Positions 39,561 through 54,692 of a stretch of 64,000 nucleotides of DNA are shown piece after piece. This DNA is from Candidatus Methanoplasma sp. (lineage in GTDB: Archaea; Thermoplasmatota; Thermoplasmata; Methanomassiliicoccales; Methanomethylophilaceae), in the NCBI GenBank assembly GCA_031256955.1, contig JAIRPP010000016.1:124001-188000 (forward strand), written 5' to 3'. The notes beneath the pieces were generated by a model. It ran no database searches. It saw only the letters and a program-made list of their open reading frames with translations, and had not been told where the DNA came from. The stretch's first letter is position 1; every line of letters starts with the position of its first letter. The position numbers and the translations under genes were made by a program.

Positions 39561-39636
39561 GCCCCGGAAACATGTTCGTGCGGCGGGGGGCGAGAGCCTC
39601 CCGCCGAGTCCTTTTCATCCGCCCTGACCGCAGTTT

Positions 39637-39719
39637 ATGAAAAACCTTCAATGACTTTTATGAAAAACCTTCATTTACTTCAATGAAAAACCTTCAATAA
39701 CCTTTATGAAAAAATCTAT
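39637..39719. repeat. Direct repeat array ATGAAAAACCTTCA, 23-bp period, 3 exact copies plus 1 degenerate
   Basis: 39637-39650, 39660-39673, 39683-39696 exact; ATGAAAAAATCTAT at 39706-39719 in register. Confidence 0.95.
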
Positions 39720-39721
39720 AT

Positions 39722-41023
39722 TTGTTCAGAACGCATGTCTCATCCATGGCTTTGACCATGGAGGGCTACAGGCCCAGGCTCATGGACGCCCATATAAGCG
39801 GCATGATGAAGGCGTTCGGGGCCGTGTGCGTAGAGGGGCCGAAATGGTGCGGGAAGACGTGGACGTCCCTGAGCCACGCCGACAGCGCGTTCGACGTCGG
39901 AGACAAGAGCGGCGGCTTCCAGAACAGGATGCTGGCGTCCATGGATCCCGACGTCGCGCTCCGGGGCGCGGAGCCGCGCCTGATCGACGAATGGCAGGAG
40001 GCCCCGGCCATATGGGACGCAGTGCGCGCGGAGGTCGACTCGAGCGCCGCCAAAGGAAGGTTCATACTGTCCGGGTCGTCGACGCCCAGGGCGAAGGGGG
40101 TGATGCACAGCGGGGCCGGGCGCATAGGCTCGGTCAGGATGCGCACGATGTCCCTGTTCGAATCGGGGGATTCCGGAGGTCAGGCGTCCCTGAGGGACAT
40201 TTTCGGGCGGGGGCTCAGCATGACCGACTGCGGGGAGACGGGGCTGGAGAGGCTTGCGCATCTGGCGGTCCGCGGCGGATGGCCGGGGTCCATAGGGCTC
40301 GGCGGCGATCTATGCGGGCTGGTCCCCAGGGACTATCTGGAGAAGGCGGCGAGGGACGCCGCCAGGCTCGACGGCAGGGAGCGCGATTCCGAGAAGATGC
40401 GCATGCTGATCAGGTCCCTAGCCCGCAACGAGAGCACCCTCGCCGGCAAGGAGGCGCTCAAGAGGGACATGATGGGCTCGGACGGGGAGAGGATCTCGGA
40501 CAACACCCTGTCCGAATACCTGGACTGCCTCGGCCGCATGTTCCTGACGGACGACCAGCCGTCTTTCAGCCCGAACTCGAGATCGTCCGTGCGCGTCGGG
40601 AAATCCGGCAAGAGGCATCTGGCGGACCCGTCCCTGGCGGTCGCCGCCCTCGAGATGGGCGCGGAGGGCCTCGTCAGAGACTTGAAGACGTTCGGATTCA
40701 TATTCGAGGCCATGTGCGCCCGCGACCTGCGCATATACGCCGAGGCGTCCGGAGGCAGGCTGTCCCACTATCGGGACGGCAACGGCAACGAGATCGACGC
40801 GGTGGTGGAGATGCGCGACGGGTCGTGGGGCGCGTTCGAGGCGAAGCTGGGCGCGGACGGGGTCGACGAGGCTGCGGAGAACCTGCTGAGGATAGCGAAG
40901 CTGCTGGAGAGGAACGGGGCGAGGCCCCCGAGCGCGCTGTGCGTGGTGTGCGGGGCGGCCAGGTACGCGTACCGCCGCCCCGACGGGGTGCACGTGGCCC
41001 CCCTGACGTCCCTGCGGGACTGA
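39722..41023 (+). CDS. AAA (AAA_14) ATPase with DUF4143 C-terminal domain
   Basis: VCVEGPKWCGKTWTSL, LIDEWQEAP, FILSGSSTP, nuclease-like NEIDAVVEMRDGSWGAFEAKLG. Confidence 0.88.
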   Translation: MFRTHVSSMALTMEGYRPRLMDAHISGMMKAFGAVCVEGPKWCGKTWTSLSHADSAFDVGDKSGGFQNRMLASMDPDVALRGAEPRLIDEWQEAPAIWDAVRAEVDSSAAKGRFILSGSSTPRAKGVMHSGAGRIGSVRMRTMSLFESGDSGGQASLRDIFGRGLSMTDCGETGLERLAHLAVRGGWPGSIGLGGDLCGLVPRDYLEKAARDAARLDGRERDSEKMRMLIRSLARNESTLAGKEALKRDMMGSDGERISDNTLSEYLDCLGRMFLTDDQPSFSPNSRSSVRVGKSGKRHLADPSLAVAALEMGAEGLVRDLKTFGFIFEAMCARDLRIYAEASGGRLSHYRDGNGNEIDAVVEMRDGSWGAFEAKLGADGVDEAAENLLRIAKLLERNGARPPSALCVVCGAARYAYRRPDGVHVAPLTSLRD

Positions 41024-41033
41024 CCCCGGGGGA

Positions 41034-41819
41034 TCAGCGCCCAGCCGCGCCCGTCATCTCCAGGACGACGTCGCGCGTCTTCGGCACGAGGATCTCCCCG
41101 CGCGCCCCCACGTCACCGGGGAGCGCCCATGCGAACTCCGTGTTCTCGTGGTTCAGGGACGGGGCCGCGCCCTCCGCCAGATAGGCGAACGGGTGCACCT
41201 CCCACATCGTTCCGCCGCCCCTCACGAGGATCGGGGGCAGGGACGCGAACGGCTCCCCGACGCGTATCCCGGTCTCCTCGAACACCTCCCTGCGGGCGGC
41301 CGCCTCCGGCTCCTCCCCCGGCTCTATCTTGCCCGCGGCGAGGGACCACGCGCCCGGGAACGACTTCGCGCCCATGGGCCTCTTCAGCAGGAGGACCCTC
41401 CCGCCGGAGACCACCGCCGAGCTGGCGACCCTGACCAGGGGCAGGCCCCTTATCTCCACGGTCCCGGAATCCCCGTCCACGACGACGTCGTCCCCGTCCT
41501 CCAGGAGGCCTATGTCCACGGAATCCACCATGGGCACCGACGATATGACCGCGCCCGTCGTGACTATGGTCTCCGCCTCCCTGTTTATCAGCGCGGCCGG
41601 GGCCTTGCCGTGGACCATCAGGTCGTACACCACGAAGGATCCGACTGTGCTCCCCTTGCCCTTGGGGAAGGCGAACGCCTTCCCGGCTATGTTCCCCTCG
41701 CGCCCGACCAGGTCCCCCGTGGACCCGTTGACGCCGCCCAGGAAGCTGAACGCCTCGCCCACCTTTACGACCCTGCCCTCCGCCCTCCCGGGCGATATGG
41801 GGCGCCCTTTGAGAATCAT
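41034..41819 (-). CDS. DUF126 (mevalonate-5-phosphate dehydratase small subunit) fused to a Nudix hydrolase domain
   Basis: N-term MILKGRPISPGRAEGRVVKVGEAFSFLGGVN...GKGSTVGSFVVYDL; C-term Nudix box GKIEPGEEPEAAARREVFEETGI. Confidence 0.85.
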   Translation of the reverse strand: MILKGRPISPGRAEGRVVKVGEAFSFLGGVNGSTGDLVGREGNIAGKAFAFPKGKGSTVGSFVVYDLMVHGKAPAALINREAETIVTTGAVISSVPMVDSVDIGLLEDGDDVVVDGDSGTVEIRGLPLVRVASSAVVSGGRVLLLKRPMGAKSFPGAWSLAAGKIEPGEEPEAAARREVFEETGIRVGEPFASLPPILVRGGGTMWEVHPFAYLAEGAAPSLNHENTEFAWALPGDVGARGEILVPKTRDVVLEMTGAAGR

Positions 41820-43012
41820 GTCACTATCTCCATCAGCCCGGATATGTCGCGGCACACTGTCTTCTGCGAGCACAGCGTGGGCAGGTAGTTCCCCGCCTTG
41901 GCGGAGTTGGTGCCCGTGCGCTGGAAGGACCCCTCTATGGGGGCCACCACCATGCACGTGTCGGCCAGGACGGGGCCGAACGCCTCCAGCACCCTGACCT
42001 CCTCCCTGCATGCGTCCCTGACCTCGGACGAGGTGCAGAACCACACCTCCACGTCCCTCCTCGCCTTCTTCTTGCCCTTCAGGAACGCGGCTATGTCCCT
42101 GACCTCCTTCGCGCTCAGGTGGGGGCACCCCAGCGCGATGAGCTGCACGTCGTCCGCGGTGTTCAGCCTCCCGCGGGCCTCCTCCAGCTCCCTCTCCCCG
42201 ATATGGATCGATTCCAGCCCGTCCAGGCCCTCGGAGAACCGCGCGGCCTCGGGGGTGACGCCCTCCACGTGGTACAGCGCGACCGAGCCGGACGCGGCCA
42301 TGGCCGCGCACAGGGTCTTGGCGTCGTCCGCCCCGGGGGATATCCCCTTGAAATAAGGCACGCCCCCGCCTATGGCCGACCCGACGGCCTGGCCCAGCAT
42401 CGAGTACCCGAACGCGGTGCCGTCCGTCTCCGCCTCGACGACCACCGTCGGCCTCCTGTTCTCGTCCAGATGGAGGCCGTAGCTCGCGGTTCTGCCGACT
42501 ATGGCCGCCGCCAGCGCCCCGGGGCCGCCCTCGCGGTTGGTCCTGGCCCCTATGAACGAGTTGACGAACGAGAGCGCCGACGACTCCGCCCATGCGACGT
42601 GGTCTCCGAACCGGGGCACGTTGGCCCCGAGGTACGGGGTGCACGAGCAGGTGGTCCTCACGCCCATCCTCCCGTATAGGTCTATTATCTCGAGCTGCTT
42701 CTCGGCGAAGCCCTCGCTGATGCGCATCTCCCTCCACCTGTCCCTGTCCATGCCGACGGGGTTGAGCGTGGACGGGACCGACACCTTCGACCCGCTGGCG
42801 GCCAGGTCGGACAGGTACTTCAGCCCGCCGTCGCCTATGGTCTTGTAGGACGCCCCGGACAGGTGCGCCGACGATATGGGCACGAGGCGCTCCGCCCCGT
42901 ATATCCTGCCGAGCGCGACTATGAGCTCCATGGCCTTCCTGCGGCCGTCCCCGGACTCTCCCGCGAGGATCGACTCCTCTTCCCTGGTGAGGCGCATCCC
43001 GATCGCCGTCAC
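41816..43012 (-). CDS. AcnX-type aconitase / mevalonate-5-phosphate dehydratase large subunit
   Basis: RLVPISSAHLSGASYKTIGDGGLKYL, STLNPVGMD, TCSCTPYLGANVPRFGDHVAWAESSAL; GTG start. Confidence 0.85.
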   Translation of the reverse strand: MTAIGMRLTREEESILAGESGDGRRKAMELIVALGRIYGAERLVPISSAHLSGASYKTIGDGGLKYLSDLAASGSKVSVPSTLNPVGMDRDRWREMRISEGFAEKQLEIIDLYGRMGVRTTCSCTPYLGANVPRFGDHVAWAESSALSFVNSFIGARTNREGGPGALAAAIVGRTASYGLHLDENRRPTVVVEAETDGTAFGYSMLGQAVGSAIGGGVPYFKGISPGADDAKTLCAAMAASGSVALYHVEGVTPEAARFSEGLDGLESIHIGERELEEARGRLNTADDVQLIALGCPHLSAKEVRDIAAFLKGKKKARRDVEVWFCTSSEVRDACREEVRVLEAFGPVLADTCMVVAPIEGSFQRTGTNSAKAGNYLPTLCSQKTVCRDISGLMEIVT

Positions 43013-43278: not shown

Positions 43279-45618
43279 TCACCCGTCGCGGGACACTCCC
43301 CAGATCACGGTGCGGTTCTCATTGTTCCACTCCGCGTCCCATCCGGGCGGGACGTTCCCCGCCCCAGGGTCTGCGACGCCCGTCTTTATCACCAGCGACG
43401 TGTCACAGAAGTTGAACGCCCTGTACCCCACAGAGGTCACGCTCGACGGGATGTACACCTCCGTCAGGGCGCTGCATCCCTCGAACGCCCTCTGCCCGAT
43501 GCTGACGACGTTCTCGTGTATCTCGATCGACGTCATATGCAAGCTGCCTTGGAAAGTGTAGTCGTTGATCGCGGTCACGCCGGGCGGAACCTTGAACGAT
43601 ACCAGATTGGTTGTTATGAACGCGCTCTCATCGATGTACGTCACGCTATCCGGGATGTTCACCGTGGTGATCGGGCGGTTCTGGAACGATTTGATCTGGG
43701 TCACGTGCATCCCGTCGGACCATTCGGGTATGACGACGTCGCCGGACACGTTCGATCCGTACACCGTGCAGTTCCCGCCGCCTATGCTGATGAAGATGAG
43801 CAGATTAGTGCCCATCCAGTACGCGTAGGCGGTGACGCTGGACGTGCTCGACCACGCGGCCGCGGCGGATCCGTCGGGCCCTGCGTACTTGGTCCCGCCG
43901 CCGCCTATGGCGGAGAACCAGCCTCCGAACCTGTACGGGGAGTTGGAGGGAGTCGGCATGGAATAGGAGGATTCTCCCTGGGATATGTACATGGACTTGA
44001 CCCCTTCGCCCGCGTCGGCGCCCTGGTAGTCGAACGTGACTAGGGACCCGGGGGGGTTCCATTTCGCATGCAGGGTGATGTCCTTGGTCACCACGTCCTT
44101 GCCGAAGTCCCATTCGGTGGCGTAAGTGTCCTCCTTGTACCATGCATCGAAGGTGTATCCGTCCCTCGTCGGCGCCGGGCTCGGCGCGGATATCTTGGAG
44201 CCGTGGACCACGGATGTGATCTGGGCGACGCTCGATCCCCCGTGGGAGTCGAACGACACGGTATAGGTTTTGATCGTCCACTTGGCGTGCAGGATTCTGT
44301 TCGCGGTAACCGTGTCCGTTCCGAAGTTCCACTGGTTGGTGCACGCCTCCTCCTTGAACCAGCCTCCGAAGGAGTATCCTTCCCTCGTCGGCTCGGTGGG
44401 CGCGGTTATCTTCGCGCCGCTGCTCACGGACGTGATCGGATCGACGTCCGATCCCCCGTGGGAGTCGAACGTCACCGTGTACGTCTCCGCCCACTTCGCG
44501 TGCAGGGTGAAGTCCGTGGTGACCGTGTCGGACGCGAAGTTCCACAGGTTGTTGTACGCCTCCTCCTTGTACCACGCCACGAACTCGTACCCGTCCCTCG
44601 TCGGCGTGGCGGGCGCGGTTATCTTGGAGCCGTGGACCACGGACGTGATCTGATCGACGCTTGATCCCCCATGGGAGTCGAACGTCACGGTGTAGGTCTT
44701 GGCCGACCACTTGGCGTTCAGGGTGATGTCGACGGTGACGGTGTCGGAAGCGAACTTCCATTCGTCGAGGCACCCGGCGTCCTTGAACCATCCGTCGAAA
44801 GAGGATCCGTCCTTCGTCGGCGCCGGGCTCGGCGCGGTTATCTTCGCGCCGTGGCTCACGGGCGTGATCGGGGCGACGCTCGATCCCCCGTTGGAGTTGA
44901 ACGTCACGGTGTATGTCTTAGCCGTCCACTTGGCGTACAGGACGGAGTTCGCGGTCACTACGTCCGCGTCGAAGTCCCATTGGATATTGAACCCGGCGTC
45001 CTTGAACCATCCGCCGAAGGAGTAGCCGTCCCTGACCGGAGCCGGCGGCGCGGGTATCTTGGAGCCCCCGGCCACGCCGGAGACCACGGTCTTGGTGCCG
45101 TCGCCGTTGTCGAACGTGACGGTGTACGTCGCAGAGTATCCCGAGTCCCCGCCTCCCTGTCCCCCGTTTCCGGAGCCGGATCCCGAGCCGCCGCTGTCCG
45201 GCGCCTCCAGCATCCATTTGGCGTACAGGGTGACGTCGCCGTAGACCCTGTAGGCGGCGAAGTCCCAAGCGTTGACGCAGTCCGCCTCCCTGTACCACCC
45301 GCCGAAGGCATAGCCTTCGGCGGACGGCGCCACAGGCGCGGACACGGTCGATCCGTCCCTGACGGACGCCTTCTGATATACGTCCCCGAAGCTCTCGAAC
45401 GTCACGGAGTGGGTGGCGGAATAGCTCCCGCCCCCGGAGTCCCCGCCTCCGTTCCCTCCGTTCCCGTTTCCGCCGTTGCCGCTCCCGCCTCCGTCGGCGG
45501 AGCCGCTCCCGATCGCGACGAGCGCGACCGCGCAGGCCGCGGCCGCTACGAGCAGGAGCAATGCGAGCAGCGCGATATATTTCTTAGAATGTCCCCTCTC
45601 TGATTCCCTTTCGTCCAT
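43279..45618 (-). CDS. Large surface protein: N-terminal TM, InlB B-repeats, C-terminal BspA-like LRR
   Basis: Repeated YTVTFDSHGGSSV...W units; LRR VTYIDESAFITTNLVSFKVPPGVTAINDYTF. Confidence 0.85.
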   Translation of the reverse strand: MDERESERGHSKKYIALLALLLLVAAAACAVALVAIGSGSADGGGSGNGGNGNGGNGGGDSGGGSYSATHSVTFESFGDVYQKASVRDGSTVSAPVAPSAEGYAFGGWYREADCVNAWDFAAYRVYGDVTLYAKWMLEAPDSGGSGSGSGNGGQGGGDSGYSATYTVTFDNGDGTKTVVSGVAGGSKIPAPPAPVRDGYSFGGWFKDAGFNIQWDFDADVVTANSVLYAKWTAKTYTVTFNSNGGSSVAPITPVSHGAKITAPSPAPTKDGSSFDGWFKDAGCLDEWKFASDTVTVDITLNAKWSAKTYTVTFDSHGGSSVDQITSVVHGSKITAPATPTRDGYEFVAWYKEEAYNNLWNFASDTVTTDFTLHAKWAETYTVTFDSHGGSDVDPITSVSSGAKITAPTEPTREGYSFGGWFKEEACTNQWNFGTDTVTANRILHAKWTIKTYTVSFDSHGGSSVAQITSVVHGSKISAPSPAPTRDGYTFDAWYKEDTYATEWDFGKDVVTKDITLHAKWNPPGSLVTFDYQGADAGEGVKSMYISQGESSYSMPTPSNSPYRFGGWFSAIGGGGTKYAGPDGSAAAAWSSTSSVTAYAYWMGTNLLIFISIGGGNCTVYGSNVSGDVVIPEWSDGMHVTQIKSFQNRPITTVNIPDSVTYIDESAFITTNLVSFKVPPGVTAINDYTFQGSLHMTSIEIHENVVSIGQRAFEGCSALTEVYIPSSVTSVGYRAFNFCDTSLVIKTGVADPGAGNVPPGWDAEWNNENRTVIWGVSRDG

Positions 45619-45855: not shown

Positions 45856-48567
45856 TTACGGGTTCCTGGGCTTGCCCCATTCCACTTCGATGCCCGCGTT
45901 CCACGTCGAATTCCATCCCTCGGGAGCCTCATCCCACCCCGTGTAGAGATGGAGGCCGGAGTCGCATCCTTTGAACACCCTCGCGTCCATCGTCGTCACG
46001 CTGGCCGGTATGTACATCTCCGTCAGGCACTCGCAGTTGAGGAACGCCTCCTCCCCTATGCTCTCCAGCCCGTCGGGGAGGGTTATGTTCTCCAAGCTCA
46101 TGCAGTTGGCGAACGCTAGCTCGCCTATGCTCTTGAGCCCCGCGGGGAGGGTCACGCTCGTCAGGAAATCCGCATACTGGAACGCCCAGCCCCCTATGGA
46201 TTCGACCGTGTCCGGGAGGGTTATGCTTCTGATGCCGCATCCTTCGAACGCGGACTCGCCTATCTCGGTCACGTTTCCGAGGAACTCGACGCTCTCCAGG
46301 CTCTCGCAGTATAGGAACGCGCACAGGGGTATGACGGTCACCCCGCTGGGGATCCTGACCGATTCGAGATTGGTACAGCCATCGAACGCGCTCTCCCCCA
46401 TGCTCACGACCGTCTCCGGGATGGAGACGGAAGCGATGAGACAGTCTTTGAATCCCTCATCCGCTATGGAGACCACCCTCATTCCGTCGTAGTACTCGGG
46501 TATTACGACCGCGCCCTTGAGAGAATCGTTCGTGCTTCTCACAGAGCAGGTCCCCGACCCGAGAGAGGTATATTTCTGCCCAGGAGACCCTTTCCAGTAC
46601 GCGTACGCCGTGATGTTAGCCGTCCCGGACCACGCGTCCAGGGAGTCTCCGTCCTCGTCCGCGAGTATGCTCCCTCCCCCGCCTATGGCCGTGTACCAGC
46701 CCCCGAACGTGTACGGGGCGCGGCCGGGCACCGGCATCTTGTAGGACGCCTGCCCGTCGGCGATCGTCATGGACTCCATCGTTTTGCCCGTGGTCGCGTT
46801 CTGGTAGTCGAACGTCACGAGCGATCCCAGGGCGCTCCACTTGGCGTGCAGGGTCATGTTCTCGGTAACCGTGTCAGACGCGAAGTTCCATGCGTTGGAG
46901 TATCCGCTCTCTTTATACCACGCCGCGAACTCGTACCCGTCCCTCGTCGGCGCCGGGCTCGGCGCGGTTATCTTCGCGCCGTGGACCACGGATGTGATCT
47001 GGGCGACGCTCGATCCCCCATGGGAATCGAACGACACGGTATAGGTTTTGATCGTCCACTTGGCGTGCAGGATTCTGTTCGCGGTAACCTCGTCCGTGCC
47101 GAAGTTCCACGGGTTGGTGCACGCTTCCTCCTTGAACCAGCCTCCGAAGGAGTATCCGTCCCTCGTCGGCTCGGTGGGCGCGGTTATCTTGGAGCCGTGG
47201 ACCACGGACGTGATCGGATCGACCGCCGTGCCCCCGTGCGAGTCGAACGACACGGCATATGTTTTGATCGTCCACTTGGCGTGCAGGATTCTGTTCGCGG
47301 TAACCTCGTCCGTGCCGAAGTTCCACGGGTTGGTGCACGCTTCCTCCTTGAACCAGCCTCCGAAGGAGTATCCTTCCCTCGTCGGCTCGTCTGGCGCGGT
47401 TATCTTGGAGCCGTGGACCACGGACGTGATCGGATCGACCGCCGTGCCCCCGTGCGAGTCGAACGCCACCGTGTGCGTCTGCACCCACTTGGCGTGCAGG
47501 GTCATGTTCTCGGTCACCGCGTCCTCTTCGAAATTCCATGCGGTGACGTATGCCGCCTCCCTGTACCACGCCACGAACGCGTGGCCGTCCCTGGTCGGCG
47601 CCGGGCTCGGCGCGTCTATCTTCGCGCCGTGCTCTACCGACGCCTTGGGCTGGACCTCCGATCCCCCCTGCGAGTCGAACGCCACCGTGTACGTGGCTTT
47701 GTCCCATTTGGCGTAGAGCACGGTGGGGCCCGTCACGGCGTCGGAGTCGAAGATCCATTCTCTGACGCAATCGCTCTCCCGATACCACGCCACGAAGGTG
47801 CGGCCCTCCCAGACGGGATCGTCGGGCGCGGCTATGGTGGAGCCGTATTCGGCGGTCGTCCCCCGGACCGCGGGGCCTCCCTGCGTGTCGAAGGACACGT
47901 CGTACGTGTCGATCCTCCATTTGGCGTACAGGACCGTGTCCGCGGTCACCCTGTCCTCGTCGAAGTTCCATCTGGCGCCGAACGCGGAGTCCTTGTACCA
48001 TCCCTCGAAGGTGTGGCCCGCCCTGGCCGGGTTCGGCGGCGCGGGCAGCTTCGCGCCTGCGCCCACTCCCGTGATCTCGACCTTGGTCCCGTCGCCGAGC
48101 TCCAGGGTCACCCTGTACGTCGGGGGTTGCGCGGGGTCGTCGTCTTCCGACCCGCTCCCCCCGCCGCCCTGTCCCGCGCCGCTCAGGGACCACTTGGCGT
48201 ACAGGGTTATGTCGCCGTAGACCCTGTGCGTCTGGAAGTCCCAAATGTTGACGCAGTCGTCCTCCATGAACCACCCGCCGAAGTCGTATCCCTCGACGGA
48301 CGGCCTGGCGGGGGCGGATATCGTCGATCCCTCCCTCGCCGACGCCTTGGCGTACTCGCTCCCGAAGCTCTCGAACGTGACGGAGTAGGTGGCGGAATAC
48401 CCTCCGTCCCCTCCGCCGCCCCCGTCCCCGTTCTTTCCGCCGTCGTCTGAGCCGCTCCAGATCGCGACGAGCGCGACCGCGCATGCCGCGACGGCCACCA
48501 GCAGGATCATGGCCAAAGCCATGATCTCTCTCTTAGAATGTCCCCTATCTGATTCCCCTTCGCCCAT
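45856..48567 (-). CDS. Large surface protein paralogue: N-terminal TM, InlB B-repeats, C-terminal BspA-like LRR
   Basis: Same architecture and MGEGESDRGHSKREIMALAMILLVAVAACAVALVAI N-terminus. Confidence 0.85.
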   Translation of the reverse strand: MGEGESDRGHSKREIMALAMILLVAVAACAVALVAIWSGSDDGGKNGDGGGGGDGGYSATYSVTFESFGSEYAKASAREGSTISAPARPSVEGYDFGGWFMEDDCVNIWDFQTHRVYGDITLYAKWSLSGAGQGGGGSGSEDDDPAQPPTYRVTLELGDGTKVEITGVGAGAKLPAPPNPARAGHTFEGWYKDSAFGARWNFDEDRVTADTVLYAKWRIDTYDVSFDTQGGPAVRGTTAEYGSTIAAPDDPVWEGRTFVAWYRESDCVREWIFDSDAVTGPTVLYAKWDKATYTVAFDSQGGSEVQPKASVEHGAKIDAPSPAPTRDGHAFVAWYREAAYVTAWNFEEDAVTENMTLHAKWVQTHTVAFDSHGGTAVDPITSVVHGSKITAPDEPTREGYSFGGWFKEEACTNPWNFGTDEVTANRILHAKWTIKTYAVSFDSHGGTAVDPITSVVHGSKITAPTEPTRDGYSFGGWFKEEACTNPWNFGTDEVTANRILHAKWTIKTYTVSFDSHGGSSVAQITSVVHGAKITAPSPAPTRDGYEFAAWYKESGYSNAWNFASDTVTENMTLHAKWSALGSLVTFDYQNATTGKTMESMTIADGQASYKMPVPGRAPYTFGGWYTAIGGGGSILADEDGDSLDAWSGTANITAYAYWKGSPGQKYTSLGSGTCSVRSTNDSLKGAVVIPEYYDGMRVVSIADEGFKDCLIASVSIPETVVSMGESAFDGCTNLESVRIPSGVTVIPLCAFLYCESLESVEFLGNVTEIGESAFEGCGIRSITLPDTVESIGGWAFQYADFLTSVTLPAGLKSIGELAFANCMSLENITLPDGLESIGEEAFLNCECLTEMYIPASVTTMDARVFKGCDSGLHLYTGWDEAPEGWNSTWNAGIEVEWGKPRNP
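47045..47380 (-). repeat. Near-identical 216-bp tandem coding repeats inside the InlB-repeat gene
   Basis: GTTTTGATCGTCCACTTGGCGTGCAGGATTCTGTTCGCGGTAACC at 47045 and 47261; the same unit at 44267 in the neighbouring gene. Confidence 0.8.
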
Positions 48568-51965: not shown

Positions 51966-52008
51966 ATATCCGAAACATCAGTAATTTTATATCCTGAGTT
52001 TCGGATAT
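51966..52008. repeat. 11-bp perfect inverted repeat ATATCCGAAAC...GTTTCGGATAT, arms 32 bp apart, overlapping start of ATPase gene
   Basis: Arms 51966-51976 and 51998-52008. Confidence 0.85.
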
Positions 52009-53230
52009 GCTCCGCATGCCTGTTCTAGACACGCCCCGCCCGCGCTATCTCTCCCGAGTCATGCCGTTCGCGGGGAACGGAAACGCGAAGGTCCTCATCG
52101 GGATCAGGAGGAGCGGCAAATCCACGCTCCTCAGGATGATGGCGGACTCCATGGGCCCGGGGATCGACGCCGTGTTCCTGGACATGGAGAGGTGGCAGAA
52201 CAGGAGCTACCGCGACCCCGATGCGCTATACGGTCTGATCTCGGGGTCTCTGGCCGGCGGCGGGCGCGGCTGCCTCTTCATCGACGAGGTGCAGGACGTG
52301 CGCGAATGGGAGTCGGTGATAAGGTCTCTGATAGCCGAGCGCCGCTGCGACGTCTATCTCTCGGGATCCAACTCGCGCCTGCTCTCCGGGGAGTTCGCCA
52401 CGTTCCTCAGCGGGAGGGTCAACGCGCTGGACGTCTTCACCCTGACCTTCTCGGAATGCCTCGAGTTCGAGGAGGCGTACAGGGGGCCCGCCGACCGCGA
52501 GGCGGTCTTCGACAAGTTCCTGCGCTTCGGCGGCTTCCCGAACGTCTGGCGCAACGACTATGCGGAATCCCAGGCGCACTCGGAGATATCGGACATAACG
52601 GACGCCATCATCAAGAGGGACATAGCGGACAGGCACGGCGTCAGGAACACGGAGGTCCTCGACAGGATATTGAGCTTCATATGCGACAACGTGGGGAACC
52701 CGATGTCGGTCAACAACATATTCGCCTCGCTCCGCTCGGAGGACGGATCGATCGGAAGGGACATGGTGTACGACTACGTGGGCTATCTGGAGGAATCGTG
52801 CCTCATAGTCAAAGCCCCGGCGTACGACGTCAAGGGCAGGAAGCATCTGACTTCGAAATACAAGTACTACCTCTCCGACATCGGGATAAAAAGCGCCCGC
52901 CTGGGCTTCAGGCCGGACGACATATCGGGCTACATGGAGAACATCCTGTACCTGGAGCTCCGCAGCAGGGGGTACGACGTATGGGTCGGGGACTGCGACG
53001 GGAGAGCGATAGACCTCGTGGGCGAGATGAACGGGAAGAAGGTGTACGTCCAGGCGACATCCGAGCTCAGCGGCGAAGAAACGGTTAGAAGGGAGTTCGG
53101 GAGCCTGAGGGGGATCGATGACAACCATCCGAAGTACGTGGTCACCCTGAGGGACGGCCCCTTGAACGCGGACATCGACGGGATAAGGTGCCGCAGGCTG
53201 ATCGACTTCCTGGAGATGAGGGAGTTCTGA
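52007..53230 (+). CDS. AAA (AAA_14) ATPase with DUF4143 C-terminal domain
   Basis: VLIGIRRSGKSTLLRMM, CLFIDEVQDV, VYLSGSNSRLLSGE, KKVYVQATSEL. Confidence 0.92.
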   Translation: MLRMPVLDTPRPRYLSRVMPFAGNGNAKVLIGIRRSGKSTLLRMMADSMGPGIDAVFLDMERWQNRSYRDPDALYGLISGSLAGGGRGCLFIDEVQDVREWESVIRSLIAERRCDVYLSGSNSRLLSGEFATFLSGRVNALDVFTLTFSECLEFEEAYRGPADREAVFDKFLRFGGFPNVWRNDYAESQAHSEISDITDAIIKRDIADRHGVRNTEVLDRILSFICDNVGNPMSVNNIFASLRSEDGSIGRDMVYDYVGYLEESCLIVKAPAYDVKGRKHLTSKYKYYLSDIGIKSARLGFRPDDISGYMENILYLELRSRGYDVWVGDCDGRAIDLVGEMNGKKVYVQATSELSGEETVRREFGSLRGIDDNHPKYVVTLRDGPLNADIDGIRCRRLIDFLEMREF

Positions 53231-53245: not shown

Positions 53246-54572
53246 TCATGGGGCCTCTCCGAAAGAGCCGTCGCCTCCGACGAAATCCCCTATCCTCCAG
53301 ACCAGCCACAGCGGCACGCTCAGCGCGCCGTTCTTCCCGGCGCCGCCCATGCTGGCCCTGACGGCGCATTCGGGGCCGTACAGCGAGACGTATCTGGACA
53401 GGGACTTGGATTTGGACCCCTCCTCCGCCTTCACTTCGATCGGGACCGCCTTCATGCCGAAATCCGCCACGAAGTCCACCTCGGCCACGCCGTCCGACCG
53501 CCGGTAATACGGCGCCTTCCCCAGAACCGGGAGCTCGTTGAGGACGTGGTTCTCCGCCATCGCCCCCTTGAAATGGGAATATCTGTCGCTCGCGTCGAAC
53601 ATGAACCCGGGCGCGACCCCGGACAGCCGCCTCAGCGGCCCCACGTCCGAGAAGTAGAGCTTGAACATGGATTCGTCGGAATACGCGGACAGGGGCGCGC
53701 CGGGCCTGGATAACCTGCAGATCTTGTGCGCGAGCCCTGCGGAAACCAGCCACTCCAGGGCGTTCTCCAGGTCCCTGGCCCTGGCCCCCTTCCTGACGTG
53801 GCCGAACATGAAGCGCCTGTTCTCCTTGGACAGCTGCCGCGGTATGGAGCGCCATATCTGCGTGAGGTCGTTCAGATCCCTGGCGGCGTGCTTGCTGAAA
53901 TCGTCCACGTAATCCCTGAGGATCGCGTCCTGCACCTCTTCCAGAGAGGCTATGTTCTTCGCCTCCACCCACTCCGCCACCGCCGCGGGCATGCCCCCGA
54001 CGACGTAGTAGGTCCTCAGGTATCCCCTGAGCTTCTCCTCCAGCGATTCGGGGACGGGGTCTCCCAGGCTCTCAGATCGCGCAGATGCCCGCACAGCATC
54101 TCCTCCCCGTTGACCAGGAGGAACTCGCAGAAGCTCATGGGATAGAGGCGGATGCGGCTCACCTTCCCCACGGGAAAGGACTGGGGGCGCGAGAGCCTCA
54201 CGCCCAGGAGGGATCCGGCGCAACCGCGTGGTGCTCCGGGGCGTTCTCGCAGAAGCACTTCAGAGAGGTCAGCGCGCGGCCGCAGAACTGTATCTCGTCG
54301 AAGGACACGAGGGTCTCCCCGGGGATTATGGGCTTTCCGCGGAGCAGGCTCAGCTCGCTCACTATGCGGTGCGGGTCGAGGTCGCTGTCGAAATGTGACG
54401 AGAGGCTCCTGTCGTCCTCGAAGTTGAAGTACGCCACATCGCCGTAGCTGTCCCTGCCGAACTCCCGGATCAGGTACGTCTTCCCGCACTGCCTGACCCC
54501 CTCGACGATGAGGGGCTTCCTCCGGGGGCTGTCCTTCCACTCAGAAAGCCTGTCGTAGGCGACCCTGCGCAT
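53246..54572 (-). pseudogene. AAA/DUF4143 ATPase interrupted by two frameshifts
   Basis: N-term frame to ~54210 (GVRQCGKTYLIREFG), middle frame GSLLGVRLSRPQSFPVGKV...SFCEFLLVNGEEML, C-term frame from ~54070. Confidence 0.85.
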
Positions 54573-54608: not shown

Positions 54609-54692
54609 TCACAAAAAAGCTAACGAATAATCTGGAGATCCTGCACATTTTCCTAACGAATGTTTGAGAGAAAATGCACATTTTCCTAACGA
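54609..54692. repeat. Direct repeat array TGCACATTTTCCTAACGA, 33-bp period, 2 exact copies plus 1 partial
   Basis: 54642-54659 and 54675-54692 exact; CTAACGA of the partial copy at 54620-54626 in register. Confidence 0.88.

Follow-up and report, generated by a model that had tools for sequence, protein, structure and literature searches.

Plasmid replication proteins bind iterons, tandem repeats of ~20 bp that lie beside the gene of the binding protein, are read by winged helices and mediate autoregulation. The defence-island repressor RptR represses its own promoter by binding to three direct repeats there that overlap the -10 box (PMC12255303). PDC-S01, a PADLOC phage defence candidate (PDC) with the AAA_14-DUF4143 domain arrangement (COG1373), is the fourth commonest prokaryotic defence system, with ~39,000 instances, and is unvalidated, experimental validation pending for most PDCs, according to PMC12988326. 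The focal gene of the present analysis encodes an AAA_14-DUF4143 ATPase in a 64,000-nucleotide stretch of the gut-type archaeon Candidatus Methanoplasma sp. (GCA_031256955.1, contig JAIRPP010000016.1, positions 124,001 to 188,000; hereafter the window), and is preceded by an array of short direct repeats. Judging from sequence comparisons and structure prediction, each protein of this family would bind its own array and repress its own promoter, a reading to which we assign a probability of about 0.77.

The focal array and the predicted recognition helix

The focal gene and its array comprise the following features:
39637-39719, + strand: putative private operator array, units of the ATGAAAAACCTTCA type at 23-bp spacing, ending at a TATA-like box
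39746-41023, + strand: clade I AAA_14-winged helix-turn-helix-DUF4143 ATPase of 425 aa (Pfam, PADLOC PDC-S01, AlphaFold2 model)
39821-40162, + strand: AAA+ ATPase domain with Walker A GPKWCGKT and DEWQ (alignment, Pfam, structural matches)
40388-40621, + strand: winged helix-turn-helix, residues 215-292 (our reading of predicted helices and strands)
40493-40513, + strand: residues 250-256 at the N-terminus of the predicted recognition helix, the best predictor of the repeat core (covariation)
40682-40975, + strand: PD-(D/E)XK nuclease-type domain (alignment, predicted structure)

Full copies of ATGAAAAACCTTCA begin at 39637, 39660 and 39683 and are followed by a degenerate fourth at 39706. Start codons are predictions, and for the focal gene ATG 39746 is a more likely one than TTG 39722: the protein that begins at ATG 39746 starts with MALTMEGYRPRL, and this start type matches that of the paralogues. 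The array therefore lies entirely upstream of the gene, beside the TATA-like box, and its last copy is not located at the start of the gene, where a preliminary description of the window had placed it. Allowing one mismatch, ATGAAAAACCTTCA occurs three times in the 1.56-Mb genome (17 contigs, 88% complete), each time inside the focal array.

Proteins of clade I, to which the focal gene belongs, share the Walker A sequence GPKWCGKT and have arrays with a spacing of 23 bp or double that. A 23-bp consensus in a common register was taken from 164 clade I loci and set against the protein alignment. Among the 86 archaeal loci (effective number of sequences 81), the strongest association between any residue and any base is that of residue 253 with motif position 10 (Z 8.6), followed by that of residue 253 with position 9 (Z 7.7). 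The mostly bacterial set (78 loci), analyzed separately, again yields residue 253, with position 9 (Z 8.3) and with position 8 (Z 6.8), and further pairs of residue 252 with position 9 and residue 251 with position 10. One stronger pair in this set, residue 343 with position 3, separates two subgroups from each other and appears to reflect phylogeny. The AlphaFold2 model of the focal protein (predicted local distance difference test score, pLDDT, 93.9) has helices at residues 215-227, 235-242 and 252-264, followed by the wing. As the last of these helices begins at residue 252, residues 251-253 form the N-terminus of the predicted recognition helix.

Relatedness among the loci was controlled in two ways, by the use of disjoint nearest pairs and by a prediction that excludes predictors that are 60% or more identical. 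Residue 253 ranks first of 337 as a predictor of core change among 80 disjoint nearest pairs; the core differs in 31% of the pairs in which residue 253 is unchanged and in 88% of those in which it has changed. When the core is predicted from the nearest locus by residues 250-256, using predictors below 60% identity, 63% of the core bases are correct, as compared to 36% when the nearest locus is chosen by the whole protein, and this segment is the best of 418 seven-residue segments. In archaea alone it likewise ranks first of 418 and exceeds all 200 permutations. The associations of residue 253 are Q with A, K with G, and E or D with C on one strand, and N with A on the other strand, and proline goes with TAA in 9 of 9 cases. 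These preferences are chemically sensible and agree with common amino acid-base preferences. The notion of the preliminary description that each ATPase recognizes a cognate array, possibly for autoregulation, is thus strongly supported for the 23-bp clade by covariation and by the promoter overlap described below; for the 33-bp and 40-bp clades, cognate pairing may be proposed only by analogy.

Another transcription factor might read the arrays, the ATPase being merely the regulated gene. The arrays do resemble ordinary promoter operators, and the covariation is compatible with an additional factor. Nevertheless, private motifs would demand a separate private regulator for each gene, the core covaries with the predicted recognition helix of the ATPase itself in both archaea and bacteria, and the focal block contains the array and the gene only, making such a factor distinctly improbable.

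Arrays across the family

Three further loci of the window belong to the same family, with these features:
941-2281, - strand: clade II AAA_14-DUF4143 ATPase (Pfam, PADLOC)
2335-2420, - strand: 33-bp array of this gene, three copies of GCTACAAAGGTTAG
51966-52008, no strand assigned: inverted repeat of the clade III gene, ATATCCGAAAC at 51966-51976 and GTTTCGGATAT at 51998-52008
52007-53230, + strand: clade III AAA_14-DUF4143 ATPase (Pfam, PADLOC)
53246-54572, - strand: frame-broken clade II gene, AAA part at 54198-54572 and DUF4143 part at 53246-54223 in overlapping frames
54620-54692, - strand: 33-bp array of the broken gene, two copies of TGCACATTTTCCTAACGA and a partial copy

All four repeat sets of the preliminary description were found where it had located them. 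Of its four genes, three are intact and the one at 53246-54572 is split into two frames, through either recent decay or an assembly error, yet its 33-bp array is intact. Repeats were scored by comparison with 200 dinucleotide-preserving shuffles. The direct-repeat z is 26 for the focal array, 16 for that of gene 941-2281 and 12 for that of gene 53246-54572, and the inverted repeat of gene 52007-53230, whose right arm extends to the first possible ATG of the gene, has a z of 5.4. Such repeats had been thought unique to the ATPase genes of the window, consistent with the finding that none of its other genes with an intergenic upstream region has a direct repeat with z >= 4. Long tandem repeats of ~213-219 bp at 44129-45066 and 46836-47694 lie within long open frames that probably encode repetitive surface proteins.

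The pattern of four genes with arrays holds in the window but is far wider, as the genome has ~50 such genes, most of which have repeats (49 DUF4143 and 56 AAA_14 matches). At 37 of 45 complete AAA_14-DUF4143 genes, the 200 bp that precede the start contain a direct or inverted repeat with p <= 0.01, and 34 of the 45 reach z >= 5. The controls were 113 further genes, each with 80 bp or more of intergenic DNA, drawn from ten 20-kb stretches and the window; here the corresponding numbers are 11 and 6 (37/45 versus 11/113, Fisher p ~1e-18). Similarly, homologue loci from bacteria and archaea, mostly known from metagenome assemblies, have repeats in 68 of 80 cases as compared to 16 of 161 nearby controls (p 1e-31). 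At least four of the 16 positive controls are the same array viewed from a divergent neighbor, and a further three belong to the family (L116 and L156, with 33-bp arrays and AAA_14-DUF4143 by Pfam, and L164, of clade I). The combination of array and gene is thus a hallmark of the family. The 80 named loci were chosen as the best matches to the query and are consequently biased to clade I and its nearest branch.

The arrays might also be explained as chance repeats arising from AT-rich promoters. The upstream regions are indeed AT-rich, and 10% of the control genes reach p <= 0.01. The shuffles, however, preserve dinucleotide content, direct-repeat z values reach 58, and an exact spacing of 23 or 33 bp recurs across phyla or genera. 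Both the shuffles and the control genes led to the rejection of chance and AT-richness, the probability of which is close to nil.

Array spacing follows the protein clade. Clade II (GARQVGKT/GVRQCGKT; window genes 941-2281 and 53246-54572) has a spacing of 32-33 bp, clade III (GMRRCGKS; window gene 52007-53230) has 39-42 bp and palindromic half-sites, and the sister ATPase_2-DUF234 proteins mostly have 15 bp. On a tree of 50 proteins of the genome these four spacing classes need three changes, the minimum for four states, demonstrating that the period co-varies with clade. This holds outside the genome. Significant direct repeats precede 70 of 80 clade I homologues that are ~50-56% identical and come mostly from Bacillota and other bacteria, with a spacing of 23 bp in 64 and 46 bp in 6; those of the named homologues that are archaeal belong to Methanomassiliicoccales/Methanomethylophilaceae. 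Archaeal clade I relatives have arrays in 75 of 81 cases, nearly all at 23, 46 or 24 bp, and clade II genes elsewhere in 63 of 75, of which 62 are at 32-34 bp.

The conserved architecture with motifs that differ between loci, noted earlier for the window, is consistent with the focal motif being private to its array and with the spacing being fixed by clade. Just 1 of 299 same-genome pairs has a nearly shared core. No extra motif divergence was seen among paralogues of the same genome, mean core similarity at matched protein identity being 0.34-0.46 within and 0.36-0.49 between genomes. Upstream repeats are also present at six sister-type ATPases of the genome (G000 C14:144019, C14:116933, C17:64312, C3:6509, C5:86332 and C1:21852, named L077, L061, L078, L079, L076 and L072, respectively), four of them with 15-bp repeats. 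Two that were tested by Pfam are ATPase_2-DUF234 proteins, one with recognizable helix-turn-helix matches. The private-array principle may thus extend beyond DUF4143.

The position of the arrays was analyzed by aligning the mostly bacterial loci on the last repeat copy. Of 78 loci, 48 have a TTG, as in a -35 box, beginning at offset -5 from this copy, and 55 have a TATAAT-like box (at least 5 of 6 matches), which most commonly starts at +18 (28 loci). The -35 box, a 17-bp spacer and the -10 box therefore enclose the last copy, and in bacteria the operator overlaps the gene's own -35/-10 elements. A site between -35 and -10 is a typical position for a repressor. The median distance from the beginning of the last copy to the start codon is 48-50 bp in both bacterial and archaeal sets, and archaeal arrays adjoin the gene start. 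The promoters of the focal genome, AT-rich and with TATA elements, are in keeping with an archaeon. In some bacteria a divergent gene shares the region of the 23-bp array (L131, L138, L141), such that the ATPase may also control its neighbor. Elsewhere in the focal genome, a long CACT/TCAC tetranucleotide tract, possibly phase-variable, directly precedes the promoter of a clade III ATPase (upstream of G000 C5:206751).

The protein, its possible mobility and a proposed mechanism

Both Pfam domains score above the gathering threshold in the window proteins and are found in 72/72 clade I homologues at E <= 0.01. The DUF4143 match (residues 203-368) covers the winged helix and the nuclease-type core, and the three intact window proteins match the PADLOC PDC-S01 profile with E values of 4e-125, 4e-54 and 9e-119. 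Walker A and B residues are conserved in clade I homologues, and E321, E349, D351, E365 and K367 are invariant in 72 of them, forming the E/D...D...ExK pattern of the PD-(D/E)XK nuclease superfamily. The clade II counterpart of ExK is E386-x-K388. Clade III proteins, such as that of gene 52007-53230, have a conserved E334-x-D336 but Q349 at the position expected for the ExK lysine, and their nuclease-type domain may therefore have either different or lost catalytic chemistry. No convincing sequence homologue was found in the PDB. The best structural matches of the ATPase-winged helix part are 2QEN (Z 15.3) and 2FNA (Z 14), followed by NB-ARC switches, such as CED-4 and plant NLRs, at Z ~12. 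The predicted structure is STAND-like, in that the AAA core is followed by a winged helix as in the NB-ARC arrangement.

The array and the ATPase together form a block at 39561-41033 (no strand assigned; defined by congener comparison), between ileS and the convergent gene 41034-42737 on the - strand. In 12 of 16 congeners the homologue of gene 41034-42737 comes after ileS and the block is missing, the gap being roughly 40 nt or less in the cases checked. This indicates that the array and the gene were either gained together here or lost together elsewhere. The block might hence be a mobile element, with the array a homing or transposition site and the ATPase and nuclease moving the unit. In addition to the missing block, the occurrence of closely similar genes in distant phyla and a weak Pfam resemblance of the AAA domain to TniB are in line with this. 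Against it, neither terminal repeats nor a target duplication was noticed at the focal site, the one site examined, the array is at one end only, at the promoter, and a homing site would be expected to be interrupted by the insertion; such an origin of the arrays is very improbable. A replicon- or parS-like site, another suggestion of the preliminary description, has no support, as the arrays are at the genes' own promoters, before ~50 scattered genes and not at an origin or partition locus with rep/par genes, and the focal motif is found nowhere else in the genome. A phage-borne origin was also rejected, since a pattern search yielded a homologue in just 6 of 2.9 million viral contigs; no PHROG match was found. 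The six viral contigs (L344-L349) encode clade I homologues of ~40% identity, with 23- or 46-bp arrays in 6/6.

In the proposed mechanism, each gene would be a self-contained unit, made up of an operator array and the coding sequence of a STAND-like AAA+ ATPase that combines a winged helix with a PD-(D/E)XK nuclease-type domain. The array mostly has two to six copies of a private operator and overlaps or adjoins the promoter. The protein would read it with its own winged helix, by means of the residues at the N-terminus of the recognition helix, and several protomers would bind side by side at a spacing set by clade geometry. An occupied last copy would block polymerase in bacteria, or TBP/TFB in archaea, and the protein would therefore keep its own level low. 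As operator and recognition residues would diverge together, dozens of paralogues could be controlled separately. The computation shows the arrays, the private nature of the focal motif, the spacing specific to each clade, the overlap with bacterial promoters and the clade I covariation; direct binding, repression, side-by-side oligomers and self-reading in the other clades are what we infer from these comparisons.

Several observations weigh against this proposal. The motif registers were fitted by expectation maximization, which can misplace weak arrays. In bacteria alone, at the 60% cutoff, segment 250-256 ranks fourth and 251-257 first, within the permutation range, and at a 50% cutoff there are too few comparators. 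The covariation was seen in clade I; 63 clade II (33-bp) loci gave no decisive outcome. Moreover, 8 of the 45 complete genes of the genome and ~30% of clade III are without a significant repeat. The archaeal TATA element is loosely placed relative to the last copy, and upstream copies could also serve activation.

Alternatively, the protein might bind its own array for activation of its gene, or use it as a sensing or loading platform, from which inactive protomers would be released with nuclease activity upon attack. The STAND-like fold shared with NB-ARC immune switches, the invariance of the nuclease-type residues in clade I, the scoring of the family as defence candidate PDC-S01 (PMC12988326) and the copies that extend well upstream of the promoter are consistent with this. 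The commonest position of a copy, between -35 and -10, is nevertheless typical of repression, and a role during infection has no support in the present analysis; this alternative is unlikely. A broader and rather doubtful extension of autorepression is that PDC-S01 and the sister DUF234 family are DNA-coded private switches. Each ATPase-nuclease would assemble at a clade-fixed spacing on its own array. This array would mediate autorepression and also hold the protein in place, the nuclease being released or armed once the promoter state of the cell is disturbed, for example by a phage; co-diversification of operator and recognition helix would provide many independent immunity-like specificities per genome.

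Comparison with known systems

A literature search revealed no established mechanism for PDC-S01, and the arrays are its first firm property. It is very likely, from sequence comparison, that the PDC-S01 protein binds DNA sequence-specifically and that its own promoter reveals its target. The residues that confer specificity can be named, 250-257 and foremost 253, making binding, repression and derepression directly testable for a common family of unknown function. The family would also be a natural source of many orthogonal repressor-operator pairs, and what it defends against becomes the question of what removes the protein from its operator.

Like 2QEN, 2FNA, CED-4 and the plant NLRs, which match it at Z 15 to 12, the protein combines an AAA domain with a winged helix; to our knowledge, no cognate promoter array has been described for 2QEN, 2FNA or NB-ARC proteins. 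Unlike plasmid iterons, the arrays are chromosomal, occur in tens of copies per genome and give no indication of an origin or replicon function. Among IniR/MalT-type STAND regulators, IniR is an AAA+ ATPase that resembles SSO1545 and binds a promoter, activating other genes through a separate C-terminal DNA-binding domain (PMC5760070), whereas here the reader of the gene's own array seems to be the winged helix beside the ATPase, with a nuclease-type domain after it.

The window proteins match PDC-S01 by profile and share with its description the combination of an ATPase and PD-(D/E)XK domain; the private operator arrays, clade-specific spacing and recognition code found here are unmentioned in the passages of that account that were searched (PMC12988326). 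No report of arrays at PDC-S01 genes was found in a literature search with most subscription papers outside its scope, and this argues only weakly for novelty. The closest case in which such regulatory logic has been worked out is that of RptR, which likewise uses direct repeats in the promoter of its own defence locus (PMC12255303). The RptR repressor is a separate protein of 9 kDa whose 6-bp site is conserved, whereas here the ATPase-nuclease is seemingly its own reader, with a site that differs from gene to gene.
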